DNA of 64,000 bases, from assembly GCF_003428625.2 (NCBI RefSeq), contig NZ_QVQT02000001.1, positions 248,001 through 312,000 of the forward strand. The letters run 5' to 3'. The notes under the pieces are model-generated. The model had not been told where the DNA came from. It searched no databases and saw only the letters and a list, made by a program, of their open reading frames with translations. Below, piece by piece: positions 5,233 to 37,599 of the stretch (position 1 is the stretch's first letter; every line of letters begins with the position of its first letter). The DNA is from Paracidobacterium acidisoli. GTDB lineage: Bacteria > Acidobacteriota > Terriglobia > Terriglobales > Acidobacteriaceae. The translations under genes were made by a program, and so were the position numbers.

Positions 5233-5291
5233 CGGTTGTCAGTTTTCAGTTCAGACTACTGGAGACTGTTCACTAACAACTGACAACTCAG
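5233..5291. repeat. Heptad-phased repeat hairpin between leuB and leuC
   Basis: The left arm has CAGTNNN units spaced 7 bases apart (5233-5253). The right arm has four exact 7-base units of the form CTNNNNA (5259-5286). GTTGTCAGTT at 5235-5244 pairs perfectly with AACTGACAAC at 5278-5287, so the arms can form a hairpin. It is one member of a dispersed family in this window. Confidence 0.8.
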
Positions 5292-9075: not shown

Positions 9076-9142
9076 AGTTGCCGGTTATTAGCCGTCAGTT
9101 TTTTTGAACTGGGGACCGGTAACTGACAACTGTCAACTTTCA
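9076..9142. repeat. Heptad-phased repeat hairpin between ilvD and ilvB
   Basis: The left arm has four 7-base units with RGYY-type starts (9076-9103). The right arm has five 7-base units starting ACT or ACC (9108-9142). The outer parts of the arms are complementary over 12 bases with two mismatches (9076-9087 with 9120-9131). It ends just before the ilvB ribosome-binding site (GGGAG). Confidence 0.8.
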
Positions 9143-14705: not shown

Positions 14706-14710
14706 GAAAC

Positions 14711-14833
14711 AGGGATCAGCCATTAGGGATCAGAGATTAGTTATCGCAGCGATTAGCTGTTAGAGATCAAGGATTAGAAAAGCTGCTGATCTGTCCGAAA
14801 CTAATGGCTAATCCCTGATCCCTAATCCCTGCT
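14711..14833. repeat. Heptad-phased repeat hairpin between the kinase and the permease
   Basis: The left arm has 7-base units of the AGNNATY type (14711-14745, then out of phase to about 14777). The right arm has CTAATCC-type 7-base units at 14801-14835. The arms are imperfect inverted copies around a 20-base unrelated centre. It fills the whole gap between the two convergent genes and touches the permease stop codon. Confidence 0.8.
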
Positions 14834-18022: not shown

Positions 18023-18307
18023 CTACTTCTCTACTTCAACGCCGCGCCAGAAAGCGATGTGGTTCTTGATGTTACGCGCGGCCGGCTTGGGGTCGGGATA
18101 ATACCAGGCCGCATCCTGATTCTCCTGCCCGTCGATCAGCAGGGAGTAATAACGCGCCTGACCCTTCCAGGGACAGGTCGAGGTCGTGGAGCTGGGACGA
18201 AAATATTCGCGCTTCACCGAGCTCTCCGGAAAGTAGATATTGCCCTCGACCGTCTCGTAAGTTTCACTTTCTGCAACTACTTTTCCGTTCCAGATTGCCT
18301 TCGCCAT
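18023..18307 (-). CDS. DUF427 domain protein, 94 aa
   Basis: The full chain is a DUF427 domain, with the characteristic AKAIWNGKVVAESE opening, the conserved VEGNIYFPESSV segment, CPWKGQARYYS in the middle and DAAWYYPDPK near the end. The family has a small beta barrel structure and no firmly assigned function. The frame is open 72 bases further upstream, but the ATG at 18307 starts the conserved sequence and has a GAGAGG-like site before it. It ends 14 bases before the padR operator and is on the same strand, but padR probably has its own promoter. Confidence 0.85.
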   Translation of the reverse strand: MAKAIWNGKVVAESETYETVEGNIYFPESSVKREYFRPSSTTSTCPWKGQARYYSLLIDGQENQDAAWYYPDPKPAARNIKNHIAFWRGVEVEK

Positions 18308-18426
18308 GAATCTGCCGATCCTCTCACGTAAATTCCGACTCTTCACATTAGCAGATGCCGCTCGAGGTGAAAACGACACAACCTGCGGCGGCCGGATCAG
18401 CCGGACGCGACAGCGGGGTGCAGCGG

Positions 18427-21051: not shown

Positions 21052-21207
21052 TCTTTTCCTTTACTACCCGCGTCCTGTGTGGCCATGCTGCTGCCCGGCC
21101 GGACGCCACGCCAATTCTTCTGGAAAGTACCATGAGGCGCCGGATGGAATCTACCGGAGCCGGCCAAAACCTCATCCTGCCCATACAGCCGGAGATACCA
21201 CGCCACC

Positions 21208-22386: not shown

Positions 22387-22537
22387 CAGACGGGGATTCC
22401 TCAGACGGCGGAAACTCCAGTCGCCGTGCAGCCTTTCTTTTCAGGGTGTATTGGGCCGGAGACTATCCGCCGCCATCCGGCAAGTCAAGCAAATCACCGC
22501 TTCATCGCATTACGGAAGCTATGCCGCGTCCGGCAGC

Positions 22538-22570
22538 GGGTCACTTTGAATGATTTGTCTTTTCACATCC
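22538..22570. repeat. Shortest copy of the two-palindrome repeat element
   Basis: It carries only the left flank (GGGTCACTTTGAATGATTT) fused to the right flank (GTCTTTTCACATC) of the element seen whole at 26341-26450 and 56933-57039. Both palindromes are missing. The junction lies in the GAATGATTT-type sequence that occurs at both ends of full copies, so it looks like a deletion between short direct repeats. It is in the dprA-mqnA divergent gap (22387-22637), in which I see nothing else. Confidence 0.7.
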
Positions 22571-22637
22571 CGAGCTGACCCACGTCCCCGCGCCTGCCTG
22601 CGGAGCAGAAAAGTCCCTGTCCCCTGTAAACTGGTGA

Positions 22638-23507
22638 GTGAGCCTTGTTCAGACGCACTTACGTATCGCTGCCATCCACTTCCTCAATCCCGCTCCTTTA
22701 ATGTGGAGCTTCGAGCACGAGCCCGGCAAAACCTTCCTCAGCAACCGCTACACCATCGAATCCTCCACTCCAGCCGAGTGCGCCGCGCGCCTCGCCGACG
22801 GAACCGCCGACATCGGCCTCGTGCCGATCGCCGCCTACGCCTCCAACCCCTCGCTCTCCGTCATTCCCGGCTGCGCCATCGCCTCACTCGACTGCGTGCG
22901 CTCCATCATTCTCGTCGTGCGCCATCCCGGCGGTCTCAGCGGCGTCGAGCGCGTCGCGCTCGATACCTCCTCCCGCACCTCGGCCACCTACACCCGCATC
23001 CTGTTTCACCGCTTCTGGAAGCGCCGGCCCGAATTCCTTCCTCACCCACCCGATCTCGAAGCCATGCTCCGCACCGCCGATGCCGCGCTGCTGATCGGCG
23101 ATCCCGCCCTGCTCGCTCTCGAAGACCGCGAACGCCGCGAGCGCGAGACCGGCGAGCAGCTGCTGTATCTCGATCTCGCCCACGAGTGGCGCATGCTCAC
23201 CGGAACCCCCTGGGTCTCCGCCTTCTGGGCCATCCGCCCCGAATCGCTCGCCGACACCGGTATCGCCGCTCCGTTCGTCATTCAGGACTTTCAGCGCTCG
23301 CGCGACGCCGGCATGGCGCACATCGACGATCTGGTCGAGGAATGGACGGGCCGCATCGTCGTTCCGCCCGAGACCATCCGCACCTATCTCACCCAAAACA
23401 TCTGGTACCTGCTCGACGATGCCTGCCTCAGCGGAATGGATCTCTTCTACCGCTACGGCGTCGAGTGCGGAGCGCTTCCCGCCGTGCCGCGGCTGAAATT
23501 TCTGTAA
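22638..23507 (+). CDS. mqnA: Chorismate dehydratase (futalosine pathway), 289 aa
   Basis: MqnA turns chorismate into 3-enolpyruvyl-benzoate, the first step of the futalosine route to menaquinone. The sequence has the periplasmic-binding-like fold of the MqnA/MqnD family, with the N-terminal AIHFLNPAPLMWSFEHE, ADIGLVPIAAYAS, the hinge DTSSRTSATYTRILF, and LLIGDPALLALE before the TPWVSAFWAIRP segment. The start is a GTG; no ATG exists before residue 22. No other mqn gene is in the window, so the pathway is dispersed in this genome. It diverges from dprA. Confidence 0.88.
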   Translation: MSLVQTHLRIAAIHFLNPAPLMWSFEHEPGKTFLSNRYTIESSTPAECAARLADGTADIGLVPIAAYASNPSLSVIPGCAIASLDCVRSIILVVRHPGGLSGVERVALDTSSRTSATYTRILFHRFWKRRPEFLPHPPDLEAMLRTADAALLIGDPALLALEDRERRERETGEQLLYLDLAHEWRMLTGTPWVSAFWAIRPESLADTGIAAPFVIQDFQRSRDAGMAHIDDLVEEWTGRIVVPPETIRTYLTQNIWYLLDDACLSGMDLFYRYGVECGALPAVPRLKFL

Positions 23508-23557
23508 AACCTCGCCGGTCACGCAGCCCTTTCCCGCTATTCTGCGTCCAGGTCTTC

Positions 23558-24238
23558 GTGAGCCTCGTTCTCGAATTCGCAGCCAGACGCAGAAGTTTTA
23601 TTCCCGGCTGGCTGCTGCATCTGGGCTTCAGCGGCGTTTTCCTCGTCGCTGTCATCGACTCCTGTCCCATCCCGACCCCCATTCCCGGCAGCACCGACAT
23701 TCTGGTGCTGCTGCTCTCCGCACACCATGCGCTTCCCTGGCTGACTGCGCTGGCCGCCGTCGCCGGCAGCCTCTGCGGCGGATGGTTCACCTGGAGCGCG
23801 GGGAAGAAGGGCGGCCAGGCCATGCTCGACCGCTTCGCCTCCAAACGCTTTCGCCGCCGCATCGAGCGCTGGGTGAAGGAGCACGCGCTGCTCTCGGTTG
23901 CATGCGCTGCGCTGCTGCCGCCGCCCGTGCCGCTGCTTCCCTTTCTGCTCGCCGCCGGCGCGCTGGGCGTCTCGCGCAGACAGATGTTCCTCGCTTTAGG
24001 CATGGCCCGCAGCCTTCGCTACGGCCTCGAAGCCCTGCTCGGCTATCTTTACGGACGCCGCATCCTTCACTGGTGGAACCACTCGCTCTCCGGCTGGTCA
24101 ACAGCCATCCTCTGGACCTTTCTCGGCCTGGTCGTCGCCGGAATCCTCTTCGGCATCTGGAGATACCGGCTCGAACAGCGCCGCGAGAAGGACACAAAGC
24201 CTATCGCAAAATCATCTCCCACGCCTGCAGCGCGCTGA
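23558..24238 (+). CDS. DedA/VTT-domain membrane protein, 226 aa
   Basis: It has several hydrophobic segments (about residues 17-38, 50-70, 105-130, 175-200) and the VTT/SNARE-associated pattern. The membrane re-entrant motif region (PIPTPIPGSTDILVLLLSA) and the cytoplasmic stretch ASKRFRRRIERWVKEH are followed by a second proline-rich half-helix (LLPPPVPLLPFLLAAG). DedA proteins help flip polyprenyl or phospholipid carriers across the inner membrane; the exact substrate here is unknown. The start is a GTG at 23558, chosen because everything upstream in this frame is non-conserved. It ends 43 bases before thrC. Confidence 0.8.
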   Translation: MSLVLEFAARRRSFIPGWLLHLGFSGVFLVAVIDSCPIPTPIPGSTDILVLLLSAHHALPWLTALAAVAGSLCGGWFTWSAGKKGGQAMLDRFASKRFRRRIERWVKEHALLSVACAALLPPPVPLLPFLLAAGALGVSRRQMFLALGMARSLRYGLEALLGYLYGRRILHWWNHSLSGWSTAILWTFLGLVVAGILFGIWRYRLEQRREKDTKPIAKSSPTPAAR

Positions 24239-24280
24239 GCCGGTCTCTGCGCGCTGCCTGTCTTGCTTTAATCTGTTGTT

Positions 24281-25498
24281 ATGCCTGCGATCTCCTTTCT
24301 TGAATGCTCGCGCTGCGCGAAACACGTCTCCGCCGACACACCGCAGACCGTCTGCCCCGCCTGTGCCGGAGCGCTCTACGTTCGCTACGACAGCGATTCG
24401 CTGAAGCAAACCGCCGTCCGCCCCGACGGAAACGCCACGCAGTCCATGTGGCGCTATGCCTCTGTGCTGCCCGAAGTCGAGCCGGTCACGCTCGGCGAAG
24501 GCTGGACGCCGATGCTGCACAGCCGCCGCCACGAGAACCTCTGGATCAAGGAAGAGGCCGCAAATCCCACCGGCACCTTCAAGGCTCGCGGACTCGCCAT
24601 GGCCGTCACGATGGCGAAGCATTACGGCCTCGAAAAGCTCGCCGCGCCCTCCGCCGGAAACGCCGCCGGAGCCCTCGCCGCCTACGCCGCCGCCGCGGGC
24701 ATTGAGGCGCATATCTTCATGCCCCGCGATGTGCCTATGGCCAATTACCTCGAAGGCGTGGCCTACGGCGCGCACGTCACCCTCGTCGACGGCCTCATCT
24801 CCGACTGCGCGCGCATGGTCGCCGAGCGAAAGGACAAAGAGGGCTGGTTCGATATCTCCACGCTCAAGGAGCCCTTCCGCGTCGAAGGCAAAAAGACCAT
24901 GGGCTATGAGCTGGTCGAGCAGCTCGGCTGGACCTACCCCGATGCCGTCTTCTACCCCACCGGCGGCGGCGTCGGCCTCATCGGCATGTGGAAGGCCTTC
25001 GAGGAGATGGAGCAGCTCGGCTGGGTCGCTCCCGGCCGCCGTCCGAAGATGATCGCCGTGCAGGCCTCCGGCTGCGCTCCCGTGGCCCGCGCTTACCGCG
25101 AAGGCGCCTCCGTCTCGAAGATGTTTGAGAACGCGGCCACCTTTGCCGCCGGCCTGCGCGTGCCCAAGCCGTACGGCGACTCCATCATCCTCGACATTGT
25201 GCGCAAATCGGAAGGCACCGTCATCGATATTCCTGACGATCGCATTCTGGAGTCGCTGCTCGACTGGTCGCGGAACGAGGGCCTGCTGCTCTGCCCCGAA
25301 GGCGCAACGGCCACCGCGGCATACGATCAGCTCATCGCCGACGGATTCCTCACGCCCAAAGACCGCGTCGTGATCTTCAACACCGGCGCCGGCCTGAAGT
25401 ACGTCGACACCCTCGCCGAAGCCATGCACCTGACCCGCACGCCGGAGAAGGAATACCCCGAGCGCGTTCCGGTCGGCGGCATCATCACGCCCCAGTGA
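24281..25498 (+). CDS. thrC: Threonine synthase, 405 aa
   Basis: ThrC converts O-phosphohomoserine to threonine with PLP. The N-terminus has a small zinc-ribbon-like Cys quartet (C9, C12, C25, C28: ECSRC and CPAC), found in many threonine synthases of this class. The PLP lysine is K101 in TGTFKARG, and PSAGNAAGALAAYAA is the phosphate-binding region. The glycine-rich PTGGGVGLIG loop and the C-terminal FNTGAGLKY are intact. Length and motifs fit the short threonine synthase class rather than threonine dehydratase, because of the Cys domain and the terminal signature. A heptad repeat element follows directly. Confidence 0.93.
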   Translation: MPAISFLECSRCAKHVSADTPQTVCPACAGALYVRYDSDSLKQTAVRPDGNATQSMWRYASVLPEVEPVTLGEGWTPMLHSRRHENLWIKEEAANPTGTFKARGLAMAVTMAKHYGLEKLAAPSAGNAAGALAAYAAAAGIEAHIFMPRDVPMANYLEGVAYGAHVTLVDGLISDCARMVAERKDKEGWFDISTLKEPFRVEGKKTMGYELVEQLGWTYPDAVFYPTGGGVGLIGMWKAFEEMEQLGWVAPGRRPKMIAVQASGCAPVARAYREGASVSKMFENAATFAAGLRVPKPYGDSIILDIVRKSEGTVIDIPDDRILESLLDWSRNEGLLLCPEGATATAAYDQLIADGFLTPKDRVVIFNTGAGLKYVDTLAEAMHLTRTPEKEYPERVPVGGIITPQ

Positions 25499-25500
25499 CA

Positions 25501-25622
25501 GGTTGTCAGTGGTCAGTTCTCAGTGGTCAGCAGACTGTTTTCCTTCCGGAGAACGGGGCCACTGGGAACCGGCTACTGAGACTGGGGACTGCCCACTGAG
25601 GACTGACAACTGGCCACTGGGG
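25501..25622. repeat. Heptad-phased repeat hairpin between thrC and ribE
   Basis: The left arm has four 7-base units (GGTTGTC, then AGTGGTC, AGTTCTC, AGTGGTC) at 25501-25528. The right arm, 25561-25622, has nine units starting ACT or ACC, eight of them exactly 7 bases long and one 6. The arms are roughly complementary. It lies between two convergent genes and could also act as a transcription terminator in both directions. Confidence 0.85.
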
Positions 25623-25632
25623 CCTGTCTTCC

Positions 25633-26286
25633 TCAGTATCCGTTGGCGATCAGATACTCCATCGTCAGCTCGAACGGCGACTCCGTCTTCTGCTGCAGCG
25701 CCAGCTTCATCAGCACATCGGCTTCGAGGTTCACCGGATCGCCCACGCGCAGCGTATGCAGGTTCGTCACCGCATACGTGTGCGGAATCACCGCGACCGC
25801 AATCGTCTCGGCCTCGCGCCGCGCAATCGTCAGGCTGATGCCCTCGATCGCGATCGAGCCCTTCTCCACCACATACCGGCGCGTCTCTTCCGGAACCCGC
25901 ACCTCGAGCCACCAGTCCGTCTTGTCCGCCGCGGCCGACGGATCGACAGGATTGAGCGCCGCCAGCGTTCCCGTGCTGTCCACATGCCCCTGCACGATAT
26001 GGCCTCCCAGCGGCGTTCCGGCCGCAGTCGGCAGCTCCAGGTTCACCACCGCTCCCGCTCTCAGCCGCGAGAGCGAGGTGCGCGCCACCGTCTCCGCCGC
26101 CAGATCGGCATGGAAAATCTCCGGACCGATATCGAGCGCCGTCAGGCACACGCCGCTCACGGCGATGCTGTCGCCGGTCTTCAGACGGCCCGCCAGCGTG
26201 GGCGCGGAGACCGCAATCCGCCACGCTCCCGCCCGCTCTTCCACGGAAAGAATATTGCCTGTCGCTTCGATCAGTCCGGTAAACAT
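25633..26286 (-). CDS. ribE: Riboflavin synthase alpha chain, 217 aa
   Basis: This enzyme dismutates two 6,7-dimethyl-8-ribityllumazine molecules into riboflavin. The chain is two tandem lumazine-binding barrels: repeat 1 begins MFTGLIEATGNI and contains DSIAVSGVCLTAL; repeat 2 begins GHIVQGHVD and contains GSIAIEGISLTIA. The length is standard. The frame is open upstream for another 87 bases, but MFTGLIE is the near-universal start of this family, so 26286 is preferred. ribD lies 232 bases upstream on the same strand, behind a repeat-rich gap. No FMN riboswitch is visible in that gap. Confidence 0.95.
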   Translation of the reverse strand: MFTGLIEATGNILSVEERAGAWRIAVSAPTLAGRLKTGDSIAVSGVCLTALDIGPEIFHADLAAETVARTSLSRLRAGAVVNLELPTAAGTPLGGHIVQGHVDSTGTLAALNPVDPSAAADKTDWWLEVRVPEETRRYVVEKGSIAIEGISLTIARREAETIAVAVIPHTYAVTNLHTLRVGDPVNLEADVLMKLALQQKTESPFELTMEYLIANGY

Positions 26287-26340
26287 ATTTTTAGAGTACC
26301 GCGCTCCGAGCACAGATCTCAGCCAGGGGAAACGTCGGCA

Positions 26341-26450
26341 GTGGGCCAGTTGGAGCGGTTTTGGGAAGGGCATGGCTTCAGCCGTGCCACAGGAGGCTCA
26401 AAATAAGCGCGGCTTCAGCCGCGGAGGGATGATTTGTCTTCTCCACACTT
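26341..26450. repeat. Full copy of the two-palindrome repeat element
   Basis: The flank GTGGGCCAGTTGGA leads to palindrome 1 (GGCATGGCTTCAGCCGTGCC, one mismatch), about 20 unconserved bases, palindrome 2 (CGCGGCTTCAGCCGCG) and the right flank GATGATTTGTCTT. The same order is seen at 56933-57039, with shortened forms at 52610-52682 and 22538-22570. Confidence 0.85.
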
Positions 26451-26487
26451 CAAAATGCCCCCGCCCACCGAAGCACCGCACCGGCTT

Positions 26488-26522
26488 CTGTGCCCTGCGA
26501 CCTGTTCCCTGCGCCCTGTTAC
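26488..26522. repeat. Short heptad-phased repeat at the ribD 3' end
   Basis: Five exact 7-base units of the form CTGNNNC run from 26488 to 26522 and overlap the last bases of ribD. They are related to the GCCCTG-type units at 31812-31846. Confidence 0.75.
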
Positions 26523-27709
26523 AGCCATGGATCGCGCAGGTAGCCCAGCACGCGGAGATCGCGCCCGAAGGCATCCACGGTGATCCGGTCCGGATGAATC
26601 TGCGGTGCATCGACTGCGCCCAGCAGCGGGACCGCGACCGAGCCCAGAAAGACCGGTGCATAAAAGAGCGCCAGCCGGTCCACATGCTCCTCGGTCAGCG
26701 CCGAGCTGTTCAGCTGCGATCCGGCCTCCAGCAGCACCGAAGTCATCTGCATCTCGCCCAGCCGCTCCAGCACGCGGCGCAGCGAAACCCGCGATCCCTC
26801 AGGCGATGATTCGACCCGCTCCACCCGCACGCCCATTGCCTCCAGCGCCCGCTGCCGGTCGGTCACGGGAATCGTGCAGAAGATCAGCACATCGTCCTTC
26901 GCCGTGCGCACCAGCTGCGAATCCAGCGGCAGACGCAGCGCCGAATCGAGGACCACCCGCAGCAGCGGACGCCGCCGCGCCAGCCCCGACCGGTCGGTCA
27001 GCAGAGGATCGTCATTCAGAATCGTATGGATGCCGGTCATGATCGCGTCGGCCGCGTGGCGCATCCGCTGCACCTCGGCGCGCGACTCTTCTCCGGTAAT
27101 GAAGGTGGTTCTGCCGATCGGCGCCGTTCCCGGCGGCGGCGCAATGCGCCCATCGAAAGAGACGCCCGCCTTCAGCGTCACAAAGGGCATGCCCGTGCGA
27201 ATGTAGCGCGCAAAGGCATCGTTCTGCTCCTGCGCCTCGCGCCGCAGCACGCCTTCTTCCGCTGTAATGCCCGCATCGCGCAGCCGCGCAAGCCCCTTGC
27301 CGCTGACCTGCGGATTCGGATCGCCCGTCGCCGCCACCACGCGGGCCACGCCCGCCTGGATCAGTGCTTCGGTGCAGGGTCCGGTGCGTCCCGTGTGACA
27401 GCACGGTTCCAGCGTCACGTAGGCCGTCGCGCCGCGGGCCTTCTCTCCCGCCTGGCGCAGCGCCACCACCTCCGCGTGATCGAGCCTGTCGTATGCGTGG
27501 AAGCCTTCGCCCACTACCGTGCCGTCTTTAACCAGCACGCACCCTACTGCGGGATTCGGCGAGGCCAGGCCTACCGAGGAGAGAGCCAGCTGCAGAGCGC
27601 GCACCATCCAGCGCTCATCTTCCTGAAGAGAAGTTCGTGACTGTGGCGACGGGTGCTGATCGGCCTGCACCCTGTCCGGCTGCTGCGCTGAAGTCATTTC
27701 GTTCGGCAC
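26519..27709 (-). CDS. ribD: Bifunctional pyrimidine deaminase/reductase of riboflavin synthesis, 396 aa
   Basis: RibD deaminates and then reduces the pyrimidine intermediate made by GTP cyclohydrolase II. The deaminase domain (about 30-150) has zinc ligands H78 with E80 (HAEVV) and C103/C112 in [11 protein letters not shown]. The reductase domain (about 170-396) contains [14 protein letters not shown], the [23 protein letters not shown] region and [15 protein letters not shown]. The GTG at 27709 is preferred over the ATG 12 bases later because GAGAGGAA sits 5 bases upstream of it. ribE follows after 232 bases. Confidence 0.95.
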
Positions 27710-27746
27710 AACTTCCTCTCACTGCCTGCGTTCGACGGCTTCCCGG

Positions 27747-28712
27747 TCAGTTCCCCAGCAGCGAATCGACAAACGCTCCGCTGTCGAACGGCAGAATATC
27801 TTCGATCTTCTCTCCCACACCGACAAAACGCACAGGCAGCTTCAGCTCACGCGCAATGGCGATCGCAATGCCGCCCTTGGCCGTTCCGTCCAGCTTGGTG
27901 AGCACAATGCCGGTCACCCCGGCAGATTCGGTAAACAGACGCGCCTGCTGCAGCCCGTTCTGTCCCGTCGTCGCATCCATCACCAGCAGCACTTCATGAG
28001 GAGCATCGGGAATAATGCGCTGCGTCGTGCGGCGCATCTTGTCCAGCTCCGCCATCAGGCTGTTCTTGGTGTGCAGCCGTCCCGCCGTATCGACGATCAG
28101 CACGTCGTTGTGGCGAGACTTCGCCGCCTGCAGCGCATCAAAGAGCACCGCCGAAGGATCGCCGCCCTGCTTCGTCCGGACAATCTCCACCCCGCTCCGC
28201 TCGCCCCAGACCTCGAGCTGCTCGATGGCCGCGGCGCGAAAGGTATCGGCGGCGCACATCAGCACCGTCTTCGCCTGCGCGCGGTACCACGCCGCCAGCT
28301 TGCCGCTGGTCGTCGTCTTACCCGTGCCGTTCACGCCGACCATCATAATTACTTCAGGAGGCGCGGCCACCTTCGCCACCGGCCGCTGCTGCTCGTCCAG
28401 AATCTGCTTCAGATGCTCGCGCAGCAGATCCTTGAGCTCCGCTCCGTTGCGAATGCCCTGGCGCTTGCCGCGATCGCGCAGCCGTTCGATAATCTCCGCC
28501 GCCGTCGTCACGCCGATATCGGAGGCGATCAGGCTCATCTCCAGATCTTCCAGCGCGGCTTCGTCCACCTCGCGGGTCAGCGCGATGACGCCCTCGATCC
28601 GCTCGCCCAGGCTCTCGCGCGTGCGCGAGACCGCCTGCTTCATGCGGTCGAAGAAGCCTTTCTTCTGTGGCTCCTGAGCTTCGTTCAGGCTGCCGAACAA
28701 CGTTTGAATCAT
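27747..28712 (-). CDS. ftsY: Signal recognition particle receptor FtsY, 321 aa
   Basis: FtsY docks SRP-ribosome complexes at the membrane. The N helical domain (residues about 15-110) leads to the GTPase domain with P-loop [10 protein letters not shown] (126-135), the insertion-box region [20 protein letters not shown] and [10 protein letters not shown]. The acidic N-terminal A domain of E. coli FtsY is almost absent; only about 20 residues precede the N domain, as in many non-enterobacterial FtsY proteins. Its RNA partner ffs is at 37309-37405 in this window. Confidence 0.96.
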
Positions 28713-28784
28713 GCGCGCCGGGACCTCACTCTGTCGTAAATCGAGTGTAACAAGCCCTCGTGTTCCCCGCCTCGGCCTGGCGGC

Positions 28785-29801
28785 TCAGACCACGCGCTCT
28801 TCGTCGCCCGCGGGCCGGCGCAGCCGGAACGACACCGGCGGGCGCGAATTCTTCACTTCAATCTCTCCCCGCCGGAACAGCGCCGTCAGCGCCGCAACCA
28901 CCGCCGGGTCATACCGCTTCTCCGCCAGCCGCGTCAGCACTTCCACAACGTAAGCCGGGTTCATCGCCTGCTGCCAGGGACGGCTGCTGGTCATGGCATC
29001 GAAGCTGTCCGCCACCGCGATAATCCGCGGCATCAGCGGAATCTCCTCGCCGCGCAGCCCATAAGGATACCCAAGCCCGTCCAGCGATTCGTGATGCAGC
29101 TCGATTCCCGGAATCAGATCTTCCAGCGCCTCAATCGGCCGCAGAATCGACGCGCCCTTCACCGTGTGGGCTTTGACAATGTCAAACTCCTCCGGAGAAA
29201 GCGGCGTTTCCTTCATCACAATGTAATTTTCAATCCCGATCGTGCCGATATCGTGCAGCAGCGCCGCCAGACGAATGCGCTCCGTCTGCTCCGCGTCGAG
29301 GCCCATCTCGCGCGCGATCATCTCCGACCACACCGCCACGCGGTCCGAATGCCCGCGCAGATAGCTCACGCGCTCATCCACTGCGCGCGCCGTCATCTGC
29401 ATCAGCTCGGTAAGCGCCTGATAGTTGCGCCGCGCCGCCGCATGCCGCTCCGACCACGCATTGCGGAAGTTGTACGCCGCCGTCTCCCACGCCTGCGCAA
29501 TGCCGGAGAAGAGCGACTGCTCCCACTCCCGCTCTTCCGGAACGCTTCTCTGCTGCTGAAAACTGGCTTCAATCTGGCGAACAAGCTGCTGATTCTGCCG
29601 CGCCAGCCTGCGGCTCCACCACCACGATGCGGCCGCGCTCGCCAGCACACCGGCCAGAATCCCCGCCGTGACCGCAGCCCACACGGGCGCGCCGGCTTCC
29701 AGCACAACAAAAATCATCAACCCGGCGAAACACACGAGGCTTCCCTGCACTGCCAGAAACCGCCGAAAGATTCGCCACCGAAATGCGGACAAACAGATCA
29801 C
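28785..29801 (-). CDS. Membrane-anchored HD-GYP domain protein, 338 aa
   Basis: Two membrane helices (about 14-34 and 40-60) precede a Gln-rich coiled linker and an HD-GYP domain (about 125-320). Metal ligands of the family are visible: H151 (GHSDR), H183-D184 (LLHDIG), H212, H236-H237 and D265 (VADSFDAM). The GYP triplet is at 244-246 in DGLGYPYGL. HD-GYP enzymes usually break down cyclic di-GMP, so this is a probable membrane-bound phosphodiesterase; activity is inferred. A small winged C-terminal tail follows. The GTG start has a GAGAGG-type site upstream. It sits between ftsY and gpsA on the same strand. Confidence 0.87.
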   Translation of the reverse strand: MICLSAFRWRIFRRFLAVQGSLVCFAGLMIFVVLEAGAPVWAAVTAGILAGVLASAAASWWWSRRLARQNQQLVRQIEASFQQQRSVPEEREWEQSLFSGIAQAWETAAYNFRNAWSERHAAARRNYQALTELMQMTARAVDERVSYLRGHSDRVAVWSEMIAREMGLDAEQTERIRLAALLHDIGTIGIENYIVMKETPLSPEEFDIVKAHTVKGASILRPIEALEDLIPGIELHHESLDGLGYPYGLRGEEIPLMPRIIAVADSFDAMTSSRPWQQAMNPAYVVEVLTRLAEKRYDPAVVAALTALFRRGEIEVKNSRPPVSFRLRRPAGDEERVV

Positions 29802-29940
29802 CCTTCGCCTCTCTCCTCAGCAGGGGAGAGGCTGCATTCAGTGTAAGTTTGCAAACGTGACCACGGTTCACCCGAAAGTGTTACCTGGGCAGGACGAAGG
29901 GGGACGTTACTTCTGCGCTGCCGCGCCCGGATCGCTCCCG

Positions 29941-30948
29941 TTACTCATCTCTTCCCGGCCGCTGCATGAGCTGCCGAATCGCCTCCACCGGCGACTTGCC
30001 CTGGTGCAGAATCGCGGCCATCTGCTCGGCGATGGGCATCTCCACGCCGTGCCGCCGCGCCAGCCCCAGCGCCGCCGGCGTCGTCCGCACGCCCTCGGCG
30101 ACTTTGCCGTGCAGTCCTTCCAGAATCTCCGGCAGCCGCCGTCCGCGGCCCAGCTCGATGCCGACCGTGCGGTTGCGCGAGAGCGATCCCGTGCAGGTCA
30201 GCACCAGATCGCCCAGGCCGGAAAGACCGGCCAGCGTCTCGCGCCGTCCGCCGCAGGCCACGGCCAGACGCGTGATCTCGGCAACGCCCCGCGTAATCAG
30301 CGCCGCCATGCTGTTGTGCCCCAGCTCCAGTCCGGTGACCACCCCGGCTGCAATCGCGATGACGTTCTTGAGCGCTCCGCCCAGCTCCACGCCGATCACA
30401 TCTTCGTTGGTGTAAAGCCTCAGCGTCCCGCTTGAAAACTCCCGCTGCAGCCGCACCGCCAGCGGCATATCCGGAGTCGCCACCGTGATCGCCGTCGGCG
30501 AGCCCGCCGCAACCTCCTGCGCAAACGACGGACCTCCCAGCGCCGCCACCGGCAGATGCAAACCGCGCGCGCGCAGCACTGAGGCGATCACCTCCGTCAT
30601 GCGCAGACCGGTCTCGTCTTCGATGCCCTTGCTCGCGCTCACCAGCACCTGGTCCTCGTGCAGGTACGGAGCAAACCTCTCGAAGCTGTGGCGCACATAC
30701 TGCGAGGGCATCACCCCGACGACGATCTCCGCCCCCTCCAGCGCCTCCGCGGCATCTGCCGTAACGCGAATCTCCTTCGGCAGCGGAAACCCCGGCAGAA
30801 AGACCGCGTTCTCGCCACGCTCCCGCAGCACCGCAGCCGACGCCTCCGAATGCGCCTGCAGCGCAATGCGATGGCCGCCGCGCTGCGCCAGGCTCAGAGC
30901 AATCGCGGTGCCCCATGCCCCGCTGCCCATCACGGCAATGTGGCTCAT
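29941..30948 (-). CDS. gpsA: Glycerol-3-phosphate dehydrogenase [NAD(P)+], 335 aa
   Basis: GpsA reduces dihydroxyacetone phosphate to sn-glycerol-3-phosphate, the backbone for phospholipids. The nucleotide-binding motif is GSGAWGTA (8-15), SKGIE and GGPSFAQEV follow, and the catalytic lysine is in the C-terminal helical domain (LGGALKNVIAIAAG). The NRTVG signature near the C-terminus is also present. The start overlaps the plsY stop by 4 bases (ATGA). The two enzymes act in sequence: GpsA makes the acceptor that PlsY acylates. Confidence 0.96.
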   Translation of the reverse strand: MSHIAVMGSGAWGTAIALSLAQRGGHRIALQAHSEASAAVLRERGENAVFLPGFPLPKEIRVTADAAEALEGAEIVVGVMPSQYVRHSFERFAPYLHEDQVLVSASKGIEDETGLRMTEVIASVLRARGLHLPVAALGGPSFAQEVAAGSPTAITVATPDMPLAVRLQREFSSGTLRLYTNEDVIGVELGGALKNVIAIAAGVVTGLELGHNSMAALITRGVAEITRLAVACGGRRETLAGLSGLGDLVLTCTGSLSRNRTVGIELGRGRRLPEILEGLHGKVAEGVRTTPAALGLARRHGVEMPIAEQMAAILHQGKSPVEAIRQLMQRPGRDE

Positions 30949-31601
30949 GCCGCCGCCGTTCCCGAAGTCTTATCTGATTTGCCGAAACGGTACTCCCTGC
31001 CCTGCAGCAGCCGCCCGATATTCTGATGGTGCTTCGCAATCACGATCAGCGGCGCAATCACCATCACCGCGCTCAGCCAGGGATCGCGTGGCGCATGCGG
31101 CAGCAGAAATGCGAAGACCGGAAACGCAATCGCGGCCAGAATCGATCCCAGCGAGACATAGCGCGACAGAGCAAACACGATAATAAAGATGCCCATCGCA
31201 GCCAGCGCCGGCCACAGCGCCAGCGCCAGAAAGACTCCCAGAGCCGTCGCCACGCCTTTGCCGCCTTTGAATCCCAGCCAGACCGTGTAGATATGTCCCA
31301 GAATGACGCAGAGCGCAGCCAGCGCCTCGGCCTTGCCCGCCGGAATCGCGGTCAGCGAGGAAATGGCCGCCAGGTGCCCGCACAGAAACACGGCCAAGTA
31401 TCCCTTGCAAACATCGAGAAGAAAGGTCAGCGCACCCAGTCCCTTTGCGCCCGAGCGCACCACATTGGTCGCGCCGATATTGCCGCTTCCCTTTGCGCGA
31501 ATATCCTCATTGCGAAAGAGACGAACCAGAATGTAGCCGAAGGGAATCGAGCCCAGAAGATACGCAACAGCAGCAACGATGAGATAAGTCACAACGGGCA
31601 T
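30945..31601 (-). CDS. plsY: Acyl-phosphate:glycerol-3-phosphate acyltransferase, 218 aa
   Basis: PlsY is an integral membrane enzyme that puts the first acyl chain on glycerol-3-phosphate, using acyl-phosphate. The three conserved motifs are present: GSIPFGYIL and the SGNIGATNVVR region near the N-terminus, the glycine-rich GFKGGKGVATALG in the middle, and the HHQNIGRLLQGRE motif near the C-terminus. Five or more membrane helices fit the family. It is immediately upstream of gpsA with a 4-base overlap, a common phospholipid gene pair. Confidence 0.95.
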   Translation of the reverse strand: MPVVTYLIVAAVAYLLGSIPFGYILVRLFRNEDIRAKGSGNIGATNVVRSGAKGLGALTFLLDVCKGYLAVFLCGHLAAISSLTAIPAGKAEALAALCVILGHIYTVWLGFKGGKGVATALGVFLALALWPALAAMGIFIIVFALSRYVSLGSILAAIAFPVFAFLLPHAPRDPWLSAVMVIAPLIVIAKHHQNIGRLLQGREYRFGKSDKTSGTAAA

Positions 31602-31627
31602 TGCGATTACGAGTGTAAATCAGAGGC

Positions 31628-31676
31628 AGGGATCAGCGACGAGGGATGAGGGATTAGGGATTAGCCGTCAGGAACA
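31628..31676. repeat. Heptad-phased repeat, left part, upstream of plsY
   Basis: Seven consecutive 7-base units start AG (mostly AGGGATT/C) from 31628 to 31676. Complementary CTAATCC-type units occur at 31791-31804. The region between (31677-31790) holds a degenerate CCGGATTTTCGG hairpin (about 31711-31733) and no gene. Confidence 0.8.
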
Positions 31677-31790
31677 GCCCTTCGCCATTGGCGTCAAAAC
31701 ATGGGGAGCCTCATCTCCGGATTTTCGGACATAGCTTGCGCATCTTTCAGAGAAGAAGGCCGGCCATCAGGAAATTCTGTACATCCATCC

Positions 31791-31846
31791 CTAATCCCTA
31801 ATGGCTGTTTCTACGCCCTGCGCCCTGTTTTCTGCGCCCTGTGCTC
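31791..31846. repeat. Heptad-phased repeat, right part, at the cinA 3' end
   Basis: Eight successive 7-base units run in one phase. The first ones are CTAATCC-like (inverted partner of 31628-31676), then they change to TGCGCCC-like units up to the cinA stop codon. The change of unit sequence without a change of phase shows that the 7-base spacing is kept while the bases drift. Confidence 0.8.
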
Positions 31847-33089
31847 ACATCAGTCTCCGCCGCACCAGGTCCAGCGCCTGGTGGCTGGCGAAAAAGCGGA
31901 TGCGCTCGCGGTCGCCCGAGAAGCGCTTCTCCACCGTCTCCGTGTACTCGCCATCGCTCACCGAGATGTAGACGAGACCGACCGGCTTCTCTTCCGTTCC
32001 GCCACCGGGACCGGCAATCCCCGTGATGCCCACGCCGAAGGTCGTCTCGCAGCGCAGGCGAATGCCTTCGGCCAGCGCCGTCGCCACTTCGCGGCTCACC
32101 GCGCCGTGCCTCTCGATCAGGGCCGGGCTCACGCCCGCAAACTCCGTCTTCAGCTGATCGCTGTACACCACTGCGCCGCCCATAAACGACCGCGAACTGC
32201 CGCTGATGCTCGTCAGCCTCTCGGCGACCAGCCCGCCCGTGCAGCTTTCCGCTACCGAGATCGTCGCGCCTCGCATCCCCAGGTAGTAGAGAACGATCTG
32301 TTCCAGCGACTCTCCCTGCGAGGAATAGAGCACGTCATCCAGTTCCTCTTCCAGCCGCTCCGCCAGCTCATCCACCCGCGTCTGCGCCAGTGAGGCGAAG
32401 GGCTTCGCGCAGAAAAGATCGATCTGGATATCGCACATGTGCGCCAGGATCGTCGTCTCCACATCCTGGTACTGCGTATAAATCGGAGCGATCCGCGCAT
32501 CCGCCGCCGACTCGCCGATCATCGCCGCCTTCAGCGTGCGCCGTGCAAAGGCCCGCTTCGGCAAAATCCCTTCGAGACGCGGCCGGCACTGCTCGTCGAA
32601 GAGCGGCTTCATCTCTCCCGGAGGCCCCGGCAGCAGCATGATCAGCTTGCGATGATCCCCGTAGACCGTATCCAGCCACTGCCCCGGAGCGCTTCCGCGC
32701 GGATTCGCCAGGATCGTCGCGCCGTCCAGCACATCCGCCTGCTTCTCGTTGTTGCGCGTCATCGTCATGCGCCGTGCCGCCGCGCGCGCATACAGGTGGG
32801 CAATGATGTCGGGATCGCGTTTGATGCCGATGTTCAGCGCCTCGGCCACCGCCTCGCGCGTCAGATCGTCTTCGGTCGGACCCAGCCCGCCGGTAATCAC
32901 CACAATGTCCACGCGCTGCAGCGCCGTGCGCACCGCGCTCACCAGATGCTTCCGGCGGTCGCCCGCAATCGTCTTGAACGCGACAGAGACGCCCAGCTCC
33001 GTGAGCTTTTCCGTGATGTAGAGGGAGTTGGTGTCCTGGCGCCACGGAGTCAGCAGCTCCGAACCAATTGCGATGATCTCCGAGTTCAT
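31845..33089 (-). CDS. cinA: CinA, competence/damage-inducible NMN amidase-type protein, 414 aa
   Basis: The N-terminal half is the MoCF-like (COG1058) domain: AIGSELLTPWRQDTNS, GGLGPTEDDLTREAVAEA, LPGPPGEMKPLF. The C-terminal half (about 255-414) is the CinA amidohydrolase domain: SVAESCTGGLVAERLTSISGSS, and GVGITGIAGPGGGTEEKPVG. Two-domain CinA proteins of this length cleave pyrophosphate-linked nucleotides and deamidate NMN in pyridine nucleotide recycling; in some bacteria the gene is induced with competence. dprA elsewhere in the window is the other competence-linked gene. Confidence 0.93.
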   Translation of the reverse strand: MNSEIIAIGSELLTPWRQDTNSLYITEKLTELGVSVAFKTIAGDRRKHLVSAVRTALQRVDIVVITGGLGPTEDDLTREAVAEALNIGIKRDPDIIAHLYARAAARRMTMTRNNEKQADVLDGATILANPRGSAPGQWLDTVYGDHRKLIMLLPGPPGEMKPLFDEQCRPRLEGILPKRAFARRTLKAAMIGESAADARIAPIYTQYQDVETTILAHMCDIQIDLFCAKPFASLAQTRVDELAERLEEELDDVLYSSQGESLEQIVLYYLGMRGATISVAESCTGGLVAERLTSISGSSRSFMGGAVVYSDQLKTEFAGVSPALIERHGAVSREVATALAEGIRLRCETTFGVGITGIAGPGGGTEEKPVGLVYISVSDGEYTETVEKRFSGDRERIRFFASHQALDLVRRRLM

Positions 33090-33146
33090 TCCGACCTGTT
33101 TACCGTACGTGGGGTGCGGGGGAGAGCCGCGGGCAAACGAATGTCG

Positions 33147-34190
33147 TCAGAACAGCCGCCAGCCCTCGATACCCAAAGCTACATGATAAACGGCGCTCGC
33201 GGTAGCCAGCAGCGCTCCCCCGCCCGGAACGAAACAGAAACCCACAATGCCTGAGCCCGAGACCGCCAGCGACGCCTCTCCGTCCTGCGTGATCCGCACA
33301 ATGCCGCGGTGTCCGTGCAGCGAAGCGGCCACATACAGGCTCCCGGCAATGTCCACCGCCATTCCCTGCGGCCGGCCCAGGCCGCGGTAAAACACCCGCG
33401 TATTCCCGTCGCGGTCAATGGCATACACGGCGTCGTGGCTCGAAGCCGTCGGCCCGGCGACATAAAGCGTGCCCTCCTGCCCGAAGGCCAGGTGGTACGC
33501 GGCCACGCTCGGCTCCAGCGTGGCAAAGACGAAGATCTGGCGATCCGGCGCAATCTTGAAGATCGTTCCGCTGCGGTCGCCGACGTACAGATTGCCCTCG
33601 CCATCGAAGGCCAGGCCCGTCGCCACGCCCATGCCCTCCGCATACACTGAGGCCACTCCGGTGCGCGAAGCGCTGTAAACCGTGCCCTCCTGGCGCGAGG
33701 AGATATAAAGCAGGCCATCCTGGTCCACCGCCAGGCCCGTCGCATTCATTACCCCGGTCACGAATGGGCGCAGCTCGTTGTCGCGCCCGATCCGGAAGAC
33801 CGACACCGGCGTCTCCTGCCCGCGCTGCCCGGAAAAGGTGACGTAGATATTCCCTGCCTGATCCACCGCCGGATTCGCAACCGCGTGCACCCCGGTCGCA
33901 ATCGGGGTCGCAATCTGTACCTCCACGCCATTGCTCTGCGCGCCGTTCTGCAGCACACGCAGCCGTCCGCTCTGCGCCTCTTCCGGAACGCGCAGCACCA
34001 TGCGCTGGCTGCGGCTCAGCAGCACCGGAGCCGACAGCTCGCCCAGCATCGCCACCGGACGCCTCCAGGCAACCGGCGCCAGGTTCGCCCCCGACACTTC
34101 CAGCTCGCCGCCAGGCAGCGCCGCGTCCGGAACCACCGCCTCGATACGGGGTGCTCCGCCAGGATCGGATTTGAGAATACGTGGCATCAT
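33147..34190 (-). CDS. IPT/TIG plus NHL-type beta-propeller protein, about 347 aa
   Basis: The first 90 residues resemble an IPT/TIG immunoglobulin-like domain (PRIEAVVPDAALPGGELEVSG). The remainder has six or so repeats of about 40 residues, each with the pattern 'NA/ATGLAVDxDGxLYxxxRxxGTVY' and a trailing hydrophobic strand. These are typical of NHL/SMP-30-like propellers. No signal peptide is seen, so the location is unclear. A TTG eight codons upstream would also open the frame; the tandem ATG codons at 34190 and 34187 are preferred, with GGAA upstream. The binding partner is unknown. It lies upstream of cinA on the same strand. Confidence 0.75.
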   Translation of the reverse strand: MMPRILKSDPGGAPRIEAVVPDAALPGGELEVSGANLAPVAWRRPVAMLGELSAPVLLSRSQRMVLRVPEEAQSGRLRVLQNGAQSNGVEVQIATPIATGVHAVANPAVDQAGNIYVTFSGQRGQETPVSVFRIGRDNELRPFVTGVMNATGLAVDQDGLLYISSRQEGTVYSASRTGVASVYAEGMGVATGLAFDGEGNLYVGDRSGTIFKIAPDRQIFVFATLEPSVAAYHLAFGQEGTLYVAGPTASSHDAVYAIDRDGNTRVFYRGLGRPQGMAVDIAGSLYVAASLHGHRGIVRITQDGEASLAVSGSGIVGFCFVPGGGALLATASAVYHVALGIEGWRLF

Positions 34191-34219
34191 TTCGTTCCGG
34201 TTTTCCGTCTGCAACCCAC

Positions 34220-34329
34220 AGTTTTTAGTCCCCAGTCCTTAGTTCTTAGTTCTCAGCATCCGGTTTCCGGTTGCAGACCACTGACCACTAACAACTGACC
34301 ACCGGGGACTGACCACTGGCAACTGATCT
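34220..34329. repeat. Longest heptad-phased repeat hairpin, between the NHL gene and pgpA
   Basis: Eight uninterrupted 7-base units start AG or GG from 34220 to 34275 (AGTTTTT, AGTCCCC, AGTCCTT and so on). After a 5-base centre come seven units of CTGACCA type from 34281 to 34329. The two arms are inverted versions of the same theme, so the whole element can fold as an imperfect hairpin. It fills the gap up to the pgpA stop codon. Confidence 0.88.
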
Positions 34330-34809
34330 TCATCGCCACCAGTGCCGCACCACCACCATCACGATCAGCGCATACGCACCGGCGGCGATGTCATCCAGCA
34401 TAATCCCGGTACCGCCGTGCAGTCGTTCCAGCTGCCGCGCCGGCCATGGCTTTACGATATCGAATACCCGGAAGAGCAGGAAAGCCAGCGCCATGTGCCG
34501 CGTCTCCACCGGGCACGCCAGCAGCGCCACCCACTGCCCCGCCACTTCGTCGATCACCACATGGCCCGGGTCTTCGCGCCCTGACTCCCGCGCCACGATC
34601 GTTCCCGCCGGAATGCCGATCGCCGCAACCGCCAGCGCCGCAACCGCCGTCCACGCAATCAGTCCTGTCGAAGTAAGATGCAGCGTTGAGGCCGCCCCGA
34701 ACCACAGCAGAGCCGCCGCCAGCGACGCCCACGTTCCAGGCCCCGGCCCCACCAGCCCGATTCCGAAAAAGGTTCCCGCCGTCCACGCCCACAGCGTCTT
34801 ATGTTTCAT
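34330..34809 (-). CDS. pgpA: Phosphatidylglycerophosphatase A, 159 aa
   Basis: PgpA dephosphorylates phosphatidylglycerol phosphate in the inner membrane. Conserved features are FFGIGLVGPGPGTWASL (the GxGxLPxAPGTxGS-like motif) near the N-terminus, the acidic motif HVVIDEVAGQWVALL, FLLFRVFDIVKPWPARQLE, and GTGIMLDDIAAG at the C-terminus. About four hydrophobic helices are present. The ATG at 34809 gives the normal length; the longer open frame runs through yacG and is not used. It overlaps yacG by 11 bases. Confidence 0.93.
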   Translation of the reverse strand: MKHKTLWAWTAGTFFGIGLVGPGPGTWASLAAALLWFGAASTLHLTSTGLIAWTAVAALAVAAIGIPAGTIVARESGREDPGHVVIDEVAGQWVALLACPVETRHMALAFLLFRVFDIVKPWPARQLERLHGGTGIMLDDIAAGAYALIVMVVVRHWWR

Positions 34810-37308: not shown

Positions 37309-37405
37309 GTGCCGGGACCTGCGCGACGCAATCCCGCCAACCCCGCCAGGTCCGGAAGGAAGCAACGGTAACGGGCCAGTGCGTGCGCAGCAGGAACCCC
37401 GGTAC
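37309..37405 (+). ncRNA. ffs: Signal recognition particle 4.5S-type RNA
   Basis: The SRP RNA guides membrane-protein ribosomes to FtsY. The universally conserved apical part is present: AGGTCCGGAAGGAAGCA (about 37348-37364) with the GGAA tetraloop and flanking A-rich internal loop that binds Ffh. The 5' end GTGCCGGG pairs with CCCGGTAC at the 3' end (37309-37316 with 37398-37405, one G-U). The size of about 97 bases is that of the small bacterial form without the Alu domain. It lies alone between the Uma2 gene and fabH. Confidence 0.92.
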
Positions 37406-37599
37406 ATATCCATCTTGTTCCTGCTCGTTCACTCCGTGCCCCGATGCTTCTGAGCCCGGTTACACAATCCTTACACTGGCCTTCATAGACAGCTTCCACG
37501 CTCGTCGGCGAAAATACTCTTTTTGAACGGAAGGTTCTCCGGCCTTACCGGAGAGTGCTTTGATGTCGGAGCCTGATCCGCAATTTACGGAGAATCCCT

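Follow-up and report, generated by a model that had tools for sequence, protein, structure and literature searches.

The window, by which we mean the whole 64-kb stretch analysed here (G000:C1:248001-312000, from the 5.0 Mb, 15-contig genome of Paracidobacterium acidisoli), carries a set of tracts between its genes in which degenerate units of exactly seven bases follow one another, frequently with an inverted counterpart toward the next gene (Table 1). We scanned the window for the mean pair identity across five successive units at periods 4-15, with a peak threshold of at least 0.60. Period 7 gave eight peaks, whereas five local shuffles averaged 0.6; each of the eight falls between called genes, and they match the seven-base-phased strings which the original prediction listed, with no others. 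Periods 8, 10, 11, 13, 14 and 15 gave no peak in the same scan, periods 4 and 5 did not rise above shuffle level, and periods 12, 9 and 6 gave 2, 4 and 34 peaks, respectively. All eight heptad peaks fall within the first 34.3 kb and none in the half from 34500 to 64000, in agreement with the clustering of heptad gaps along the chromosome described below.

Table 1. Heptad elements and associated pieces in the window (window coordinates), with whole-hairpin copies in genome G058
Feature	Position	Sequence and remarks
Period-7 peaks	5254, 9103, 14705, 25491, 26483, 31623, 31808, 34215	
Heptad hairpin, leuB-leuC gap	5233..5291	left GTTGTCA GTTTTCA GTT; right ACTGGAG ACTGTTC ACTAACA ACTGACA ACT
Heptad tract, ilvD-ilvB gap	9076..9142	weakest of the set; right arm AACTGAC AACTGTC AAC
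Heptad hairpin with both arms, occupying the whole gap between convergent histidine kinase and ADOP permease genes	14706..14833	z -5.7
Heptad hairpin with both arms, occupying the whole gap between convergent threonine synthase and ribE genes	25499..25632	core CAGT / ACTG; z -3.9
Single heptad arm reaching into the ribD stop codon (minus strand)	26483..26522	CTGTGCC CTGCGAC CTGTTCC CTGCGCC CTG
plsY-cinA gap element, left arm	31623..31676	AGGGATC ... AGGGATT AGGGATT AG
plsY-cinA gap element, short palindromic middle piece	31673..31734	CTCCGGATTTTCGGA region; similar pieces on C12, C10
plsY-cinA gap element, right arm, reaching up to the stop codon of cinA (minus strand)	31787..31848	
Two-armed heptad hairpin filling the gap from pgpA to the start of a beta-propeller gene (33147-34214)	34215..34329	pgpA stop codon 34330, minus strand
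Whole-hairpin copies in G058	C5:125850, C5:129427, C9:39473, C9:41870	each at most about 50 nt from a stop codon

The inverted arrangement of the arms, which the original prediction had called frequent in the set, is clear in the elements at 5233-5291, 14706-14833, 25499-25632 and 34215-34329. The element at 14706-14833 sets CAGGGAT CAGCCAT TAGGGAT... opposite ...TAATGGC TAATCCC TGATCCC TAATCCC TG, and that at 34215-34329 sets YAGTNNN units on the left opposite ACTGACC ACTAACA ACTGACC ACCGGGG ACTGACC ACTGGCA ACTG on the right, forming one long imperfect hairpin (-40.6 kcal/mol and z -2.5 for the enclosing called gap 34191-34329). At 5233-5291 the predicted stem has 11 + 7 pairs and a z of just -1.1. 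The arrangement did not hold at 26483-26522, a single arm, and it held in part at 31602-31844, where the arms correspond in the inner portion (GGGATTA / TAATCCC) and the outer end on the cinA side consists of GCGCCCT words; the right arm there (31787-31848) runs ATCCCTA ATCCCTA ATGGCTG ... GCGCCCT GCGCCCT.

Two other repeats were observed beside the heptads. A short palindrome around CATGTCCGGATTTTCGGACATG occurs at 31688-31732 of the window, at G000:C12:492347-492409 and at G000:C10:308236-308282; it forms the centre of two heptad elements and on C10 stands apart from heptads, apparently doubled, so that in the former two cases one repeat is nested within another. The other is dispersed between genes, measures about 50-110 bp and contains a GCGGCTTCAGCCGCG palindrome; it lies at 26336-26443, 52604-52653 and 56928-57036 of the window and also on C8 and C12, with about 75-86 % identity among many places in the genome; it shows no heptad phase as far as seen and no Rfam match at gathering score. 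The heptad elements are likewise unmatched by Rfam at gathering score throughout the window, whose sole match is the bacterial small SRP RNA (RF00169) at 37310-37407.

We extended the analysis to 860,417 bp of the P. acidisoli genome, including 796 kb beyond the window, using a simple hexamer-model gene caller made for this analysis that called 698 genes and left 117 kb intergenic. At a threshold of at least 0.65, 33 period-7 tracts were intergenic and 2 were genic, the shuffled counterparts numbering 0 and 1, which bears out the claim of a dispersed family with a strict seven-base phase; the period-7 signal was nearly absent from shuffled sequence in the window, in the 860,417 bp and in the 80 loci of other genomes described below. 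At this threshold periods 8, 10, 11, 13, 15 and 16 gave no tract in the 860,417 bp, and period 14 gave 4 intergenic tracts, as a harmonic. Period 5 gave 5 intergenic and 5 genic tracts versus 1 and 9 shuffled, period 6 gave 3 intergenic and 60 genic, and period 9 gave 1 and 7. Lowering the threshold to 0.60 raised the period-7 count to 53 tracts, 44 of them intergenic, and 42 of these 44 share an in-phase core of at least three YAG on one strand and CTR on the other; since phase and strand were chosen for maximal YAG in this count, its proper control is the stop-codon position test that follows. The four bases after YAG varied widely among 258 units (GGCG 41, GGAT 39, CCAT 16, GGCA 12; 78 different in all). 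A search with ACTGACNACTGNCAACTG, two mismatches allowed, matched the genome at 24 places, and its reversed control at 1.

The core is placed and oriented with respect to genes. Counting as an array at least 4 of 5 units, in a best register free to start anywhere 0-44 nt past the stop codon, we found a YAG array on the coding strand after 29 of 694 stop codons and a CTR array after 3; reversed cores gave 4 and 1, and shuffles 0. In all 29 YAG arrays the best five-unit register starts 0-6 nt past the stop. Upstream of 697 start codons there were 9 CTR arrays and 1 YAG array. Both arms were present in 13 of the 482 gaps of 40-600 bp, in the order YAG..CTR every time (13/13), and gaps with one or both arms made up 10/79 of the convergent, 18/294 of the tandem and 1/109 of the divergent gaps. 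In the relative G104, 12 of 29 stop-facing tract ends lie within -20..7 nt of the stop codon and 10 of 21 start-facing ends within -7..7 nt of the start codon, so that in this genome start codons are abutted too. This snug fit to stops and starts would arise if the elements were copied into gaps only a few bases long. An element is laid out as a degenerate 7-mer array directly following a stop codon, then a loop whose sequence is not fixed, then an opposed array toward the next gene, the stop-side core being YAG in P. acidisoli and often AGC, CAG, TAG or AGT in relatives, and the opposed core CTR. Provision of stop codons in all frames was considered as a purpose of the tracts and is rejected on account of the CAG core of 208 of the 258 units.

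As the original prediction had proposed, the inverted arms frequently fold as hairpins: the 13 two-armed gaps have a mean RNA fold z of -4.5, against -1.21 (sd 2.0) for 60 sampled control gaps, and 13 one-armed gaps, with a mean z of -1.25, do no better than the controls. Strong stems directly after stop codons, common in convergent gaps (10/79) and rare in divergent ones (1/109), would be expected of intrinsic transcription terminators, perhaps acting in both directions, in which the heptad make-up of the stems is incidental. Against this, a U-run is not evident, as the T content beyond the outer arms is hardly enriched (0.26 in P. acidisoli and 0.23 in G104, against 0.22 in intergenic DNA of P. 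acidisoli), and a search of 14600-34599 gave 10 terminator-like sites, with none of the heptad stems among them and 12.1 sites in shuffles. On these grounds we reject the intrinsic terminator as the cause, and we rate this explanation as quite improbable; the orthologous junction described below adds to both sides of it.

Within tracts, unit identity is 0.62 at distances of 7 and 14 bases, 0.58 at 21 and 0.46 at 42, versus 0.22-0.26 at tested lags other than multiples of 7, and other genomes agree with this profile in outline. Such decay with distance would be produced by ordinary heptanucleotide microsatellites, that is, by polymerase slippage with a 7-base bias and purging from coding sequence, the inverted arms being incidental. 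Perfect long arrays, for example of about 9-12 copies of CAGGGCG, point in the same direction, as does the over-representation of heptamers in many bacteria, for which slippage has been proposed in work cited by Rehm et al. 2015 (PMC4692102). Long near-perfect arrays of CCTGCGA, CCTGTGC and CCTGCGC words, with about 11-13 units, lie at G000:C9:521344-521431, C10:199040-199120 and C12:453146-453226, and these could serve as variable-number markers.

The original prediction had noted two to four fixed bases in the units of each tract, and a drift of unit sequence with kept phase. We simulated 7-base duplication, deletion and random mutation for comparison with 37 tracts of P. acidisoli and 99 of other genomes, and slippage plus mutation came close to the observed variation. 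In the 37 tracts the column sd was 0.288 (se 0.007) versus 0.265-0.271 simulated, invariant columns numbered 3.08 of 7 versus 2.7-3.5, and saturated columns 0.92 (se 0.13) versus 0.31-0.63, with 1.0 for substitution only; in the 99 other tracts the corresponding values were 0.276, 2.89 and 1.15. The heterogeneity inside tracts thus exceeds the simulation slightly, and since this excess is model-dependent we draw no claim from single tracts: the fixed bases are not clearly beyond what slippage plus random mutation leaves, selection on them is rejected as an explanation, and turnover within the tract, in 7-base steps, may be enough to account for the drift. A shared core becomes apparent only in comparisons between tracts.

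Heptads are not an oddity of P. acidisoli. Tracts occur throughout Acidobacteriota, and the portion of Rehm et al. 2015 (PMC4692102) drawn on here describes the same layout in Xanthomonas and Nostoc. The neighbours of P. acidisoli by CinA are Acidobacteriota, many of them Acidobacteriaceae, and none of the relatives found for comparison belongs to its genus; the material compared includes MAGs. Across 80 loci (1.286 Mb, all Acidobacteriota by record title except L061) there were 45 period-7 tracts at a threshold of at least 0.65, versus 1 in shuffled sequence; periods 8, 11 and 14 gave 6, 1 and 3 tracts, and period 5 gave 20 versus 17 shuffled. L061 (JANXWZ010000193.1) is titled as a Rhodanobacteraceae MAG and has a cinA 58 % identical to that of P. 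acidisoli, possibly as a mislabelled bin. The heptad words vary from locus to locus. Among 55 tracts of other genomes the top in-phase triplets are ACT/AGT, AGC/GCT, CAG/CTG and CTA/TAG, 3.9-5.4 times above flank composition, and 25 of the 55 have in-phase CTR in at least 75 % of their units; tracts without such a core occur too, for example with GGATT, TTTCA and CGGAATG words in L078, L099 and L110.

This distribution is wide and patchy. A GCT-spaced pattern searched in 61 genomes gave (control counts in parentheses) 287 (54) matches in G006, 298 (14) in G041, 516 (4) in G059 and 557 (0) in G031, and 8 (8) in P. acidisoli, 3 (0) in G017 and 6 (0) in G019. The last two, the closest genomes searched by CinA (73 and 72 %), have no tract of at least 0.65 in 200 kb each. 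At the same threshold there are 7 tracts in 200 kb of G023, 3 in 160 kb of G004, 2 in 40 kb of G006, 2 in 37 kb of G041, 0 in 60 kb of G055 and 19 in 400 kb of G104, and in 55 kb of G031 no intergenic and 1 genic tract despite its 557 pattern matches. The densities of G058 (13 in 100 kb), G059 (9 in 46 kb) and G044 (6 in 60 kb) are inflated, as these stretches were picked at pattern matches. Period-8 tracts were also found in G004 (3 in 160 kb) and G104 (3 in 400 kb). A control of 100 kb of E. coli K-12 had no tract at any of seven tested periods.

Two candidate genes, SbcD and MutS, do not account for this pattern. The profile of SbcD (TIGR00619), a hairpin nuclease, stayed below cut-off in 18/18 acidobacterial genomes, with 3 weak matches; in a control set it matched 13/14, 8 of them over cut-off. 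In the absence of SbcD, long palindromes could persist. MutS1 was present in all 18 genomes, heptad-rich and heptad-poor. Neither SbcD nor MutS1 separates heptad-rich from heptad-poor genomes, and we reject loss of SbcCD or of MutS as the cause.

The two arms of an element match each other more than they match the arms of other gaps. In 19 gaps of G104, arms of the same gap share 5.05 7-mers versus 1.06 between gaps, and none of 5000 permutations reached this value. Several word families (AGCTTCT, AGCTCTT, GTCGTCG, AGCATTT and GGTACTC) coexist in the 400 kb of this genome. In the genus of G006, where 18 gaps of at least 60 bp were compared, arms share 5.6 7-mers within a species versus 1.45 between species, with 0/20000 permutations as high; the species are related, and kinship is ignored in this test. 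Ranked by best 18-nt identity, the own arm came first in 6 of the 18 species and in 2 of 13 gaps of P. acidisoli. In these 13 gaps arms share 4.46 7-mers versus 2.14, with 442/20000 permutations as high, so that same-gap matching is weaker in P. acidisoli than in G104 or the genus of G006. Incidental arms, as the microsatellite explanation has them, would not outmatch those of other gaps or of other species in this way, and would not run YAG..CTR in 13 cases out of 13.

Whole elements recur in the relatives. A heptad hairpin of G058 (251 bp as query) has 4 near-full copies of 86-100 % identity over 166-251 bp (Table 1), and its words shift progressively inward from the outer end, with the opposite arm mirroring them. 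Two hairpins of G104, separated by 2.6 kb, show 92.6 % identity over 95 bp, loop included, and each takes up the whole gap between one gene's start codon and the stop codon of the next gene. A third, related hairpin sits in the intervening gap, which gives this gene string three filled gaps in a row. For both genomes blastn at 1e-3 found no match between the flanks of different copies, blastp left the neighbouring proteins unmatched from copy to copy (best E 0.12 in G058 and 0.60 in G104), and a translated comparison of the G104 flanks gave weak pieces only (38 aa at 32 %). For another G104 element the arm alone recurs, with at least 27 further matches, some overlapping, among the 40 of 55 candidates scored. 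Copies at the level of elements are weaker in P. acidisoli: the clearest spans 82 bp, inverted, at 88 % and 1.3 kb away, and the element at 31602-31844 matches one on C12 over 53 + 63 bp at 85 % and 81 %, its middle being the separate palindrome. Slippage alone does not place near-identical hairpins of 95-250 bp between unrelated genes. We accordingly regard ordinary microsatellites as an unlikely explanation of the elements.

The whole copies between unrelated genes, present in G058 and G104 and not clear in P. acidisoli, would suit a MITE or a REP/BIME-like element moved in trans by a transposase (Y1/RAYT or other). REP/BIME sequences associated with RAYT are gene-end palindromes dispersed in the genome, 20-40 bp long and accompanied by a GTAG or similar tag, and the position of the heptad elements at gene ends resembles theirs. 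Heptad gaps are moreover clustered: 13 pairs of the 31 heptad gaps (among 375 gaps) of P. acidisoli lie within 5 kb of each other versus 5.1 expected, and 11 pairs of the 20 (among 204) in G104 versus 4.1, each reached in 1 of 1000 trials. We read this clustering as copying that favours near sites, or as regional tolerance. Likeness of words between nearby tracts was considered as a further pattern and rejected, being not significant (1921/5000 in P. acidisoli and 293/5000 in G104). Several observations speak against such an element. The ends of the 4 + 2 copies, compared by eye, vary in heptad number, and no target duplication was noticed by eye at the G058 and G104 copies. The heptad elements differ from REP/BIME in having a heptad phase and no fixed sequence. 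Finally, no Y1_Tnp gene was found in the P. acidisoli genome, which is 97.4 % complete, as compared with its presence in 49 of the 61 genomes searched. A Y1 enzyme thus seems dispensable, provided that none is encoded in the missing portion of the genome; a RAYT/Y1 transposase is rejected as the cause, and we consider transposase-driven movement in general to be doubtful.

The gene after cinA is thpR-like (MRLF..LD) in many relatives and plsY in P. acidisoli, and the cinA-thpR junction allowed one orthologous gap to be followed. In a table of 63 rows, 22 had a thpR-like next gene called and the others had other next genes; two miscalled rows, L010 with heptads and L019 without (about 4 bp by eye), are excluded from the 22. 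Heptads were present in 10 of these gaps (65-150 bp), with L016 (score 0.33) counted among them by eye, and absent from 12 (4, 5, 9, 15, 16, 16, 17, 21, 46, 49, 115 and 294 bp), 8 of which measure 4-21 bp. The words differ among junctions (GTCGTCA, GTACTCG, CATTGAG, GCTCTTA, GAGC and others), mostly with their inverse across the gap. The element is therefore present, absent or different at an orthologous position, and does not behave there as the ordinary conserved terminator that would have counted against the original prediction. Genes only 4-21 bp apart are likely to be co-transcribed, and the occurrence of heptads between genes that lie this close in relatives further weakens the terminator explanation.

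We then read this junction in the genus of G006, where cinA was matched in 43 of 45 genomes and the loci of 30 of these were used; 33 loci were read, three of which proved to be duplicates (L287, L288 and L292), and 22 remained after eight with a junction unreadable by pattern were dropped (L289, L291, L296, L304, L306, L307, L313 and L315). Heptads were present in 17 and absent from 5 (L293, L297, L298, L300 and L308), three of the latter (L297, L298 and L300) forming a clade without a heptad element. By eye, L297 and L300 have a short stem-loop at the junction instead, and the last 8 nt before thpR have a T content of 0.45 in the 17 heptad species versus 0.35 in the 5 others; both observations are in favour of terminators. 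Word classes, assigned by eye and mapped on the cinA tree, required 11 changes, against a minimum of 6 and a shuffled mean of 15.1 (0/200 as low), so the classes are clustered on the tree and rewriting is not frantic. Nonetheless, sister pairs at nodes with 100/98-100/99 support differ in word class (L299/L305, L301/L302, L303/L295 and L309/L310). Both arms have changed cleanly in L299/L305 and in L294 against L290 (node 96/96), and one arm is short or degenerate in L302, L303 and L310. Some orthologous elements share their words (L021/L290 and L057/L079), which indicates that elements are heritable for some time. Loops of sister species gave no alignment, and an attempt to use them to separate rewriting in situ from replacement failed on this account, arm-to-arm copying being indistinguishable there from replacement of the whole element.

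The single core of 42 of the 44 intergenic tracts and its polarity relative to the stop codon would also fit arrays bound by an RNA- or DNA-binding protein with a 7-nt footprint, as proposed for the TAACTGA repeats of Beggiatoaceae. The coexistence of several word families in one genome (AGCTTCT, AGCTCTT, GTCGTCG and AGCATTT in G104) and the different words of sister species are a poor fit with one specific binder, and we hold this explanation to be very unlikely.

The patchy junction, the word changes between sister species and the whole copies together show that the elements are copied within genomes, and suggest that they are renewed in 7-base steps with coupled arms. We consider it probable, with moderate confidence, that they are palindromic members of one dispersed intergenic family, here called heptad hairpins, and that they are copied and renewed in this manner. 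The original prediction had suggested a mobile or template-copied element; spread by copying is borne out by the whole elements in G058 and G104, and a copying mechanism is indicated by the matching arms together with these copies. A whole hairpin would be copied into a short gene gap, and its arrays would gain and lose 7-base steps by strand slippage. The arms may pair by fold-back, such that one arm templates its partner through template switching at a quasi-palindrome, and copying of this kind would keep the same words on both arms. The hairpins may persist in that the 3' ends of genes tolerate, or profit from, a stem-loop, which perhaps protects or delimits the upstream transcript.

Heptamer arrays are known from other bacteria. 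In heterocystous cyanobacteria, STRRs consist of fixed heptamer words in tandem. Heterogeneous arrays of (GGGANTN)n in Xanthomonas and GGGGA(C/T)T in Nostoc/Anabaena are, in the part of Rehm et al. 2015 (PMC4692102) used here, 89-93 % intergenic in Xanthomonas and on average 28 nt from the 5' neighbouring gene, and their G-rich strand is the coding one downstream of genes and the non-coding one upstream. Among totals of 186 and 183 patterns there are 70 and 75 cases of convergent sites lying close together, arrays are rare between divergent genes, and mostly the same gaps are occupied in two species with changed length and sequence (PMC4692102). The acidobacterial elements share with these arrays, as described there, a strict 7-base period, degenerate units with some fixed positions, an intergenic location, convergent pairs near gene 3' ends and rarity between divergent genes. 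They differ in that each of those genomes has one G-tract word, with a G-quadruplex reading, whereas acidobacteria have many words, many of them free of G-tracts (AGCTCTT, TGAGCAA and AGCTTCT), and further in starting 0-6 nt from the stop codon (in P. acidisoli), in arm words that match per site and in whole-hairpin copies. GGG occurs in about two fifths of P. acidisoli units (about 110/258), and since many words of relatives have no G-tract we reject the G-quadruplex as a general cause.

The TAACTGA repeats of Beggiatoaceae, Cyanobacteria and Bacteroidetes (MacGregor 2015, PMC4679880) are likewise intergenic heptamers, patchy between close relatives and with a CTG-containing core. In the parts of that source consulted, however, they are one exact word, repeated directly (with one indirect case in BOGUAY) and, in BOGUAY, mostly just upstream of start codons, and hairpin arms are not among the features described; the exact TAACTGA unit upstream of starts was matched neither by the units nor by the positions of P. 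acidisoli. In a survey of periodic repeats in 7006 prokaryote genomes, tandem heptamers are the most abundant intergenic repeat, with no known function, and the text of the survey as seen here does not treat hairpins or turnover (PMC6344855). The word Acidobacteri appears once in the main text of PMC4060949 and not at all in those of PMC6749651, PMC13155455 and PMC6344855, as far as these were available. A literature search by title and abstract, whose coverage leaves out most subscription journals, found no description of heptad arrays in Acidobacteria. Convergent intergenic heptamer arrays are thus the known kind to which these elements belong, and what is new here is that they are word-free, arm-matched and copied whole.

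A bolder possibility, which we put forward tentatively and think rather unlikely, is a hitherto undescribed copying activity, host-borne or mobile, that writes and rewrites gene-end hairpins in 7-nucleotide steps with one arm templating the other. Under such an activity words would change on both arms, and phase, position and polarity (AG in the 5' arm, CT in the 3' arm) would stay. CTG and CTA, the core of the 3' arm, are also trinucleotides at which bacterial primases start, which may be a hint in this direction. If true, a 7-nucleotide copying activity would explain why seven is so common as an intergenic period in prokaryotes. In the acidobacterial form of these arrays, phase, polarity and hairpin outlast sequence, and the cinA-thpR junction in a genus of 45 species, with its empty, filled and rewritten states, is a natural experiment in which slippage, transposition and arm-templated copying can be put to a direct test.
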